Below, one piece after another: positions 38,930 through 40,713 of a stretch of DNA of 40,713 nt. Location of the stretch: contig CAIXPS010000334.1 in assembly GCA_903921365.1 (NCBI GenBank), positions 1-40,713 of the forward strand, written 5' to 3'. Position numbers and translations under genes: made by a program. The first letter of the stretch is position 1. Each line of letters begins with the position of its first letter. Below the pieces are notes generated by a model. The model ran no database searches. It was not told the origin of the DNA and saw nothing but the letters and a program-made list of their open reading frames with translations. The DNA comes from an uncultured bacterium (GTDB lineage Bacteria; Chloroflexota; Anaerolineae; J036; Brachytrichaceae).

Positions 38930-39352
38930 ATGAACACTGTGTTGAATACCAGAAAAACGTCGCGCTTCTTGATCATCGCAATAGCCGTCCTGATATTGAG
39001 CTTATACGGAGTGAGCGCCCCAGCACTCGCTGCAACGACCACACCTACTTCATACGTCGGCAGTTCAATTGGCAAACAACCGCCCGTGATACAGAGCTTC
39101 AATATCACCCAGTTCAACGGGCGCGGCATCTTCTTCGGCAACATCACTGTTGGCGGCATAACCTACACCGGCTATGGTCGTTACGTTGGCGCCACTGCTA
39201 CGCTGCTCTTCTCATGGTTTACTTACAGTTCAACCGGCCTCTCTACCTACCAGGGCGATTTCACCGGCAAGTTTGGTCCCGGATTCCTCACCATCACGGG
39301 CGCCTTCAACAAGGGAACGCAGACAGGCGCTTTCAGCCTTAAGGCAGCGTAA
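38930..39352 (+). CDS. Secreted hypothetical protein
   Basis: A 140-residue protein with a signal peptide (basic NTRKTSR, hydrophobic FLIIAIAVLILSLYG, cut near ALAA) and a mature part rich in Gly, Thr, Tyr and Ser, probably beta-structured (GIFFGNITVGGITYTGYGRYVG, in parts). I recognise no family. TAGACT lies 7 bases before the ATG, and no ribosome site is seen. It stands alone between the DUF1295 gene and the convergent helicase gene. Confidence 0.75.
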   Translation: MNTVLNTRKTSRFLIIAIAVLILSLYGVSAPALAATTTPTSYVGSSIGKQPPVIQSFNITQFNGRGIFFGNITVGGITYTGYGRYVGATATLLFSWFTYSSTGLSTYQGDFTGKFGPGFLTITGAFNKGTQTGAFSLKAA

Positions 39353-39364
39353 GCGGTCATTGTT

Positions 39365-40713
39365 TCAGCCGTGCCGGATGCAATCACGCGCAATCGCCCC
39401 GATGAACCGGCTCGGCTGAACTGCATATCCCTTCGCATTTATCGCGTGTGACGAGATAAACAGGCGTTGTTTCGCGCGCGTCATTGCCACGTAAAAGACG
39501 CGCTTTTCTTCTTCCAGTTTTGTTGGGTCTTTCCTGCTCTGATAAGTGGGCATCTCATCCTCGCACGCGCCGGCCAGGAACACCGTATCGAATTCGAGCC
39601 CCTTGGACTGATGAATGGTGATGATCGCGACCTTGTTCTCCCGCATCGTCAGTTGATCCAGGTTTTTCGCCAACGCGGTGAACTCGATCACGGCGCGCAA
39701 GGCGGTTTCCGGGTGCAGCGCCGGATCATCGCGGTCGCTGAAGGTGCTGACCAGCCTATCGAGGTTCGCCCTGCGCTTCCGTTCCGGGTCGCCAGCGTAT
39801 GCTTCCCGCACCCCCGATTCATCCAGAACGCGCGCCAGCAGCTCAGCCGGGCGCAATCGTCCCATCTGAGAGCGCCAGTCCATCATCAACTGAGCCAGCG
39901 GCTTGAAGTGCCGACCGTTGATGCCGCGCATCAGCTTTGCGCGCTCTGCCGATTGGGCTGCAACCAGCGGCATCAGCGCCTCGGCCAGTCGAACGGTCGT
40001 CTCAACATCTGCGTCGGCGCGATGGGTGGGCGTGCTGCCAAGGTGCAGCGTCTCTGCCAGTGTGGCCAGCCGGTAGTTGCCCGACTCGACGAAGCGCGTC
40101 GCGGTGTTATACGTATCCGCCCATTCCAGTTCCGGCGCGTCGATGCCTGCCCGCCGCGCATGCGCCATGACCATCTTGACGTCGTAGCCCACGTTATGCC
40201 CGACGAGGAGTGCTCCACGCGCAAAAGCGAAAAACTCGCTCAACACCTGGCGCGCGGCTTGACCATTGGCATTCAGGAACTCATCGGTGAGCCCGTGAAT
40301 AGCCACACTCTCGCCGACCGCCTGGCCTTTGATGTACTGATGAAACGTCGCAACTCGCTTTCCGCCAGCCAGCTTCTGCGCCGCAATTTCGACGACGGTC
40401 GCGGATTCCACGTCGAGCCCTGTCGATTCGACATCGAACACAACGACTGTCCCGGCAGACCAGGCTTCCAGTAGTGGGTAGAACGGATCCACGCCGGCGA
40501 GCAGCTCCGGCGTGGCAAAGTCGGTCAGCTTCAACCCGCACTGTGTCCCGCTCTGCATAAGTTTTGTCAACGTCGCCGCGCCAACGCCTTTGACATAGTT
40601 CAGGGCGATGCGATGCATCGCGCCGTTGTCAAAGGGGTTCACCAGCAATCGGAGAAAAGACAGCACGTCCTTGATCTCCTGCCGTTGGAAGAACTCATAC
40701 TGTTCGACGGTGA
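39365..40713 (-). CDS. UvrD/PcrA-type helicase with embedded DEDDh exonuclease, 5' truncated
   Basis: At least 449 residues, continuing beyond the window (frame open to 40713). The N-terminal visible part (EFFQRQEIKDVLSFLRLLVNP, in parts) is the UvrD helicase core, and motifs V and VI are in TIHQSKGLEFDTVFLAGACEDEMP and VAMTRAKQRLFIS. Between them about residues 70-235, counted from the GTG at 40666, form a DEDDh 3'-5' exonuclease. It has FDVESTGLD (Asp, Glu), GHNVGYDVKM (Asp) and HRADADVETT (His, Asp). The nuclease is inserted in the 2B region rather than added to a terminus. This arrangement would let one protein unwind and trim DNA ends. Confidence 0.9.
   Translation of the reverse strand, partial: TVEQYEFFQRQEIKDVLSFLRLLVNPFDNGAMHRIALNYVKGVGAATLTKLMQSGTQCGLKLTDFATPELLAGVDPFYPLLEAWSAGTVVVFDVESTGLDVESATVVEIAAQKLAGGKRVATFHQYIKGQAVGESVAIHGLTDEFLNANGQAARQVLSEFFAFARGALLVGHNVGYDVKMVMAHARRAGIDAPELEWADTYNTATRFVESGNYRLATLAETLHLGSTPTHRADADVETTVRLAEALMPLVAAQSAERAKLMRGINGRHFKPLAQLMMDWRSQMGRLRPAELLARVLDESGVREAYAGDPERKRRANLDRLVSTFSDRDDPALHPETALRAVIEFTALAKNLDQLTMRENKVAIITIHQSKGLEFDTVFLAGACEDEMPTYQSRKDPTKLEEEKRVFYVAMTRAKQRLFISSHAINAKGYAVQPSRFIGAIARDCIRHG

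Follow-up and report, generated by a model that had tools for sequence, protein, structure and literature searches.

A UvrD-type helicase with a DEDDh exonuclease domain inserted in its 2B region: a candidate single-chain exo-helicase

Is a UvrD-type helicase with an exonuclease in the middle of its fold a genuine enzyme, and what would it do? The question is raised by a gene at the end of the window, the whole stretch of DNA analyzed here, which is contig C334 (40,713 bp) of a genome with 603 contigs. The original prediction had placed the gene part at 39365-40713, running past the window end, and had read it as a complete DEDDh nuclease inserted in the 2B region of a UvrD-type helicase rather than fused to a terminus; all of this was borne out. 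Pfam matched UvrD_C at residues 1-422 of the 448-aa window half (E 8e-64) and, flanked by it, RNase_T/DEDDh at residues 90-242 (E 8e-22). Alignment to E. coli UvrD (2is1) paired window residues 6-60 with UvrD 381-435 and residues 293-446 with UvrD 482-642, so that the helicase was aligned on both sides of approximately 186 extra residues between UvrD positions 435 and 482. These lie inside the 2B subdomain, whose boundaries in UvrD we take to be approximately 378-550. The part before the insert carries FFQRQEIKD and a GVG (GIG-like) turn, which are invariant columns in the alignment. The features are given below, where type 1 denotes the window-like fused proteins; longer relatives from the window's class (G054, G159, and G176) are called type 2.

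39365-40713, minus strand: C-terminal half of the exo-helicase gene (448 aa), truncated on its 5' side where the contig stops; stop codon 39365-39367
40457-40711, minus strand: UvrD part preceding the insert, aa 1-85, aligned to UvrD 381-435
39986-40444, minus strand: inserted DEDDh 3'-5' exonuclease domain, aa 90-242 (RNase_T, E 8e-22)
40427-40435, minus strand: Exo I motif D-x-E (D93, E95), invariant in alignments A1 and A3 and in all 37 fused proteins counted
40181-40198, minus strand: Exo II motif HN...D (H172, N173, D177); N and D in 37 of 37, H in 36 of 37
40007-40024, minus strand: Exo III motif H....D (H230, D235), supplying the histidine and the final aspartate of DEDDh, from residue conservation
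39368-39955, minus strand: UvrD part past the insert, aa 253-448 (UvrD_C), with 293-446 aligned to UvrD 482-642
39590-39622, minus strand: helicase motif V ITIHQSKGLEF, aa 364-374, scored positions identical in 27 of 27 type-1 proteins
39473-39496, minus strand: helicase motif VI FYVAMTRA, aa 406-413, from residue conservation
40678-40713, no strand: 36-base end common to the C334 end and the C164 start, exact by sequence identity
C164:2-1195, minus strand: N-terminal half of the gene, from the overlap with the window end
C164:1219-1665, minus strand: PIN gene, upstream neighbor of the exo-helicase
C164:1702-1995, minus strand: Phd gene of the Phd/PIN pair (locus L027)

Reading across the join of C334 and C164 gave a frame of 835 aa with 0 stops, and the full gene was thereby obtained. 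A genome of the same genus (G001) holds an intact homologue of 830 aa, 45% identical, and when this protein was used as a query against the window's own genome, its residues 385-823 fell on C334 and its residues 8-395 on C164. More UvrD-like genes or pieces were found in the same genome on C66, C240, C440, and C559; the exo-helicase is therefore an extra one. The GC content of the gene part was 60.2% against 58.0% for the window, a difference that does not point to recent transfer. Searches of the window with Rfam and for tRNAs returned no match. A small protein of 140 aa with a hydrophobic N-terminus (38930-39352) is convergent with the helicase gene and lies 12 bases from its stop codon.

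The original prediction had asked whether the insertion point is constant, and in the alignment it is. Exonuclease columns held 157-171 residues in fused proteins (64 in L068), compared with 12-38 in 19 ordinary UvrDs. Among the 27 type-1 proteins, mean pairwise identity was 36% in the helicase and 40% in the exonuclease, and Walker A/B, motifs III-VI, and the exonuclease D, E, HN, D, D, and H were identical in all 27. When every type of fused protein was taken together, the residues D, E, D, D, and H were kept in 37 of 37 counted and the Exo II histidine in 36, a count from which L047 and L052 (incomplete N-terminus), L068 (exonuclease core missing), and L069 (no intact ORF) were left out; L047 and L052, inspected separately, show the exonuclease motifs. 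The window family thus has the DEDDh catalytic set D-x-E, D, and H....D, together with an SF1A motor with motifs I-VI, so that both helicase and nuclease keep their catalytic residues. The window exonuclease was nearest to PRK07883-type and PolC DNA exonucleases.

A full-length cyanobacterial homologue (L046) was modeled with 23 aligned rows (pLDDT 88.7, pTM 0.81), and the model showed both folds, including the UvrD fold of the motor. Its helicase superposed on DNA-bound D. radiodurans UvrD with Z 42.9 and rmsd 2.9 over 610 residues, and its exonuclease on that of S. aureus DinG with Z 23.1 and rmsd 1.8 over 168 residues; Z to DnaQ and DinG exonucleases was 22.9-23.1. The window half modeled alone resembled L046 (pLDDT 87.2), with the exonuclease at 88-252. 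In the L046 model, helix 452-460 passes directly into the exonuclease's initial strand and helix 606-641 is unbroken from the exonuclease into 2B. Because these helices are continuous, the exonuclease looks rigidly joined to 2B in the model. A search of a viral protein structure library gave helicases as the best matches, with at most 17% identity in the top three.

As the best explanation of the observed architecture, constant insertion, catalytic residues, spread, and neighbors, we infer, with a probability of roughly 60%, that the gene encodes an 835-aa single-chain exo-helicase in which a working DEDDh domain held rigidly in 2B serves the removal of 3'-ended DNA, and that the enzyme is accessory, horizontally spread, and anti-phage in some lineages. 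Its activities, their polarity, the shared strand, and the cellular role are predictions, polarity and coupling being carried over from the UvrD and DnaQ families. UvrD-type motors move along DNA in the 3'-5' direction, the direction in which DEDDh exonucleases degrade it. Since both activities run 3' to 5', unwinding and trimming of one strand is the simplest mechanism. The exo-helicase would load where a strand offers a 3' end, a gap, or a nick; the UvrD/PcrA-fold motor would translocate 3'-5' along the loaded strand; and the exonuclease would consume that strand from its 3' end, giving ATP-driven removal of 3'-ended DNA. Such an enzyme would be a simple analogue of AddA/RecB, or UvrD and ExoX in one chain. 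One point of geometry tells against this mechanism: the exonuclease sits in 2B, which in known UvrD structures lies on the duplex side, and its active site would have to reach the 3' end behind the motor. In the cell, the protein may act as an accessory enzyme beside ordinary UvrD-like helicases. A stand-alone 3'-end-resecting enzyme with an accessory or defense role is likely.

We then consider how widely the architecture is distributed. The original prediction had called for a search in Chloroflexota, the window's phylum. The architecture is present there, and it is not a speciality of the phylum, since few genomes among the matches listed have it. At 1e-20, at least two of five genomes of the genus matched, and none of the 19 other genomes of the family did so among the matches listed. 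In the class, at 1e-25, at least 5 of 396 genomes matched (the window's own, G001, and three with type 2). A draw of 400 genomes of the phylum gave at least 221 matching at 1e-60, most of the listed matches through the ordinary N-terminal half alone. Full-span matches among those listed were G453 (44%), G654 (40%), G495 (33%), G572 (32%), and the window's own genome in two pieces. These counts are lower bounds, with four candidates scored per genome in the class search and two in the phylum search. In the genome_contigs collection, at least 26 loci matched across the insert (among 80 of 390 relatives listed), and 25 of these 26 have an ORF with both signatures. The fused loci among the matches listed were from Cyanobacteria, Verrucomicrobia, Bacillota, Ignavibacteria, Acidobacteria, Deltaproteobacteria (a locus designated Myxococcota in the helicase tree), Akkermansia, and one unnamed source. 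The remaining locus, a Clostridium sartagoforme AAU1 copy (L069:6001-7373), has no intact ORF, though its close relative L064 is intact. A plasmid collection added further single-ORF cases in five Bacteroidota records and one Acetoanaerobium record. As a control, 58 loci (the remaining 54 of the 80 and four from G genomes) were scanned for ordinary UvrD ORFs; 53 had one, and the Exo I pattern was found in none of the 53. A phage origin was considered and rejected: viral_contigs gave 0 matches with the single protein and 4 partial ones with the alignment, and no phage record covers 80% of the query.

The closest relatives among the matches listed belong to another phylum, namely the cyanobacterial homologues, with 47-51% identity to the window half. 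Trees agreed with this placement. In the helicase tree (a "quick" tree with exonuclease columns removed and one flagged long row; L047, L052, L068, and L069 left out), the window protein grouped with four cyanobacterial proteins (SH-aLRT 95), and G001 came next (98). Controls in the trees were 19 of 53 ordinary UvrD ORFs, and the PcrA proteins of class relatives clustered with Dehalococcoidia and Roseiflexus PcrA, in keeping with a Chloroflexota source. In the exonuclease tree, aligned separately, with L068 and L069 left out and long branches present, the window domain again joined the cyanobacteria (97/93). Type-1 exonucleases did not form one group there; outgroup exonucleases stood among them, many forks were weak, and type 1 needed five changes. 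The trees speak for type 1 having spread horizontally and type 2 having arisen separately, but in an AU test holding all fused helicases together gave p 0.273, by which a single origin is neither shown nor rejected.

This distribution bears on the strongest alternative, an enzyme of housekeeping or stress repair (excising 3' strands in mismatch or gap repair) without a defense role, beside which defense neighbors would be coincidence or secondary recruitment. We regard this as quite possible, at odds somewhat below even. The kinship of the exonuclease to PRK07883-type and PolC DNA exonucleases speaks for it, as do the Pfam-named neighbors of L036, L055, L057, L058, L063, and L105, which are metabolic, membrane, or weakly matched and include no defense gene. 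Such a role fits poorly with the patchy occurrence in genus, family, and class given above, where three of the class genomes carry the other type, and with closest kin, among the matches listed, in another phylum.

The original prediction had held that coupled unwinding and trimming would suit end resection or repair, a role that stays putative. The neighborhood proved to be mixed: dedicated defense genes stand beside some relatives and not others. The window gene starts 20 bases past the PIN stop codon of the Phd/PIN pair, an antitoxin gene (Phd) and a toxin gene (PIN) on one strand. UG reverse transcriptases adjoin the exo-helicase in three of five cyanobacterial relatives, as listed here.

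L048:7323-10379: RT_UG35, Moorena, overlapping or close to the exo-helicase gene
L050:1388-4852: RT_UG35, ESFC-1, overlapping or close to the exo-helicase gene
L049:7380-8894: RT_UG14, Nostoc, overlapping or close to the exo-helicase gene

These are compact loci of two or three genes. The exo-helicase of L049 also adjoins a KilA-N/BstA-like gene. No reverse transcriptase was seen at the cyanobacterial loci L046 and L047, the latter cut upstream. Beside UG14 and UG35 reverse transcriptases, the enzyme might trim or unwind cDNA or phage DNA. Other defense-type neighbors were YhcG, whole or as its N-terminal part (L086, L059), a KilA-N-like gene (L051), and RhuM, which is the second gene upstream in L059 and, in a Phocaeicola plasmid, the one immediately upstream. 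No partner gene conserved across the fused family was found; neighbors differ, and most are unannotated. Gene calls were poor in the GC-rich loci L053, L062, L065, L067, L150, and L152, where neighbors may be hidden. In G654, the stop codon of the exo-helicase is followed after approximately 104 bases by the start of an HmaC/DUF499-like ATPase (L151:4305-4712), which the contig end cuts.

A neighbor search with queries taken from the fused loci, which is circular for self-hits, also matched one of 54 ordinary UvrD loci (YhcG-like, L104). Because of this circularity, adjacent ORFs were scanned with ordinary UvrDs as control. At 1e-8 or better, PADLOC models matched at least 8 of 37 adjacent ORFs at fused loci (7 of 27 loci with such an ORF; 32 examined), compared with at most 7 of 70 ORFs at ordinary UvrDs (44 of 50 loci), the latter to models mad2 and C3a214; the count for fused loci is a lower bound, drawn from 25 of 89 families listed. 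The enrichment of defense genes near fused loci was thus modest. Two Bacteroidota plasmid loci look like defense-type loci: in one from Prevotella E2-28 (L041:1-10493), the fused helicase occurs with PP2C, formylglycine-type, and FtsK genes, and in one from Chryseobacterium (L038:1-12448), its companions are a DEAD/DEAH helicase and an AAA protein of 1612 aa.

The reverse transcriptase loci suggest another reading, in which the window gene is a DRT-like anti-phage component, a former or solitary RTasHel whose reverse transcriptase partner is missing or lies elsewhere. In PADLOC, RTasHel (PDLC03802, a DRT protein) was the top profile for six of eight fused proteins, and GajB came top for two type-2 proteins; for the window half, GajB profiles ranked below RTasHel. 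Gabija pairs GajB with GajA (an OLD nuclease); the named neighbors on C164 are PIN and Phd. The window half matched RTasHel with 268 bits over 341-674, the same-genus homologue with 680 bits over 7-673 in a single stretch, and two cyanobacterial members from RT loci over its whole length, with 1087 and 1123 bits. The window exonuclease alone matched profile positions 398-515 (E 2e-21). These end-to-end matches and the exonuclease match indicate that RTasHel was built on this architecture. The profile also ranked first for each of three ordinary UvrDs, which matched it in two stretches with 367-430 bits, a range that takes in the fused Clostridium member L064 (402 bits), and since it is not specific, the RTasHel label alone is weak evidence. 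The inclusion of the exonuclease segment in the profile, the three cyanobacterial loci, and five reverse transcriptase matches elsewhere in the window genome (C253, C172, C274, C137, and C491; four over the cut-off) are in keeping with a lost or distant partner. Against it, no reverse transcriptase match was found on C334 or C164, so the window gene adjoins no UG reverse transcriptase, and three such queries gave no match around the same-genus gene or in the other fused loci searched. We consider a DRT-like role for the window gene unlikely.

It is highly improbable that the exonuclease domain has no catalytic activity and persists as a remnant with a structural or DNA-binding part. Its one precedent would be the Akkermansia relative L068 (L068:4894-7050), a 719-aa ORF that has motifs I and III and keeps the helicase, while its exonuclease core is missing (64 of ~159 residues), through natural loss or an assembly slip; set against this are the D, E, D, D, and H of all 37 counted proteins and the motifs in L047 and L052. 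An assembly chimera or a misjoin of two neighboring genes, suggested by the cut at the contig end, can be dismissed, because single-ORF fused homologues occur in the same-genus genome, in other genomes of the window's phylum, and in seven named phyla, which excludes chance and misassembly and with them the combination of separate genes and an error at the insert that the original prediction had named as its refutation.

How does the protein compare with known systems? It shares with UvrD/PcrA/Rep (SF1A) the whole fold and all helicase motifs, and differs in the 158-aa DEDDh segment in 2B. The fused protein P0002 stayed far below the NCBIfam equivalog cut-offs for pcrA (383.8 of 911.2) and uvrD (328.3 of 1144.45), as did the window half, which is half a protein only. 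DinG with an N-terminal DEDDh (S. aureus, B. subtilis) is likewise reported to have helicase and DEDDh in one chain, and its exonuclease superposes on that of L046 at 1.8 A; DinG, however, is an SF2 helicase with a terminal fusion, whereas the window family is SF1A with an internal insertion. AddA and RecB also unite a UvrD-like motor with a nuclease in a single polypeptide; against the L046 model they gave Z 31.9 and 26.0, at rmsd ~10. Their nuclease is a C-terminal PD-(D/E)XK domain, in contrast to the internal DEDDh here, and P0002 scored below the cut-offs for addA_Gpos (150.8 of 707.65 bits) and recB (156.1 of 696.05 bits). With RTasHel of DRT systems, the window protein shares the profile match, part of the exonuclease domain included, and has cyanobacterial relatives beside RT_UG14/UG35; it differs in lacking a reverse transcriptase on its contigs and in having Phd/PIN upstream instead.

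Among the titles and abstract openings searched, none described a DEDDh domain inserted in a UvrD helicase, and no paper on RTasHel was found. The architecture is already catalogued implicitly as RTasHel. Public records name such proteins "3'-5' exonuclease" or "ATP-dependent helicase". As these names give one activity and the RTasHel label omits the nuclease, annotation shows half of the enzyme. More tentatively, the fused proteins may form an undescribed SF1A exo-helicase family with DEDDh at one fixed point in 2B, carried by horizontal transfer into no fewer than six named phyla besides that of the window (seven if the Bacteroidota branch is counted), a portable module for 3'-end resection that was repeatedly recruited by anti-phage systems (UG14/UG35 DRTs, KilA-N/BstA-like, RhuM, YhcG, and Hma-like loci); the window protein would then be a solitary, toxin-antitoxin-linked version acting alone on invading or damaged DNA. 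We hold this broader proposal possible rather than probable. The 2B subdomain is regulatory in UvrD-type helicases, and a nuclease fixed rigidly in it would tie DNA trimming to the on/off switch of unwinding. If true, the family would be a minimal single-chain counterpart of AddAB/RecBCD, and the role of the helicase in UG14/UG35 reverse transcriptase loci would be to unwind and shorten 3'-ended DNA.

Type 2 stands apart in both trees: its helicases fell within ordinary PcrA (98, quick tree) and its exonucleases with DinG/DnaQ-type exonucleases (99/98). Because of these placements, its insertion at the same site was possibly a separate, independent event. The type-2 genes lie at L033:6455-9352, L034:6647-9739, and L035:2483-5572 and encode PcrA-like proteins with DEDDh and further residues in 2B. 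With the window type, type 2 shares a PcrA-like helicase that holds DEDDh in its 2B region; unlike it, the type-2 proteins are 131-201 aa longer overall than the fused protein P0002.
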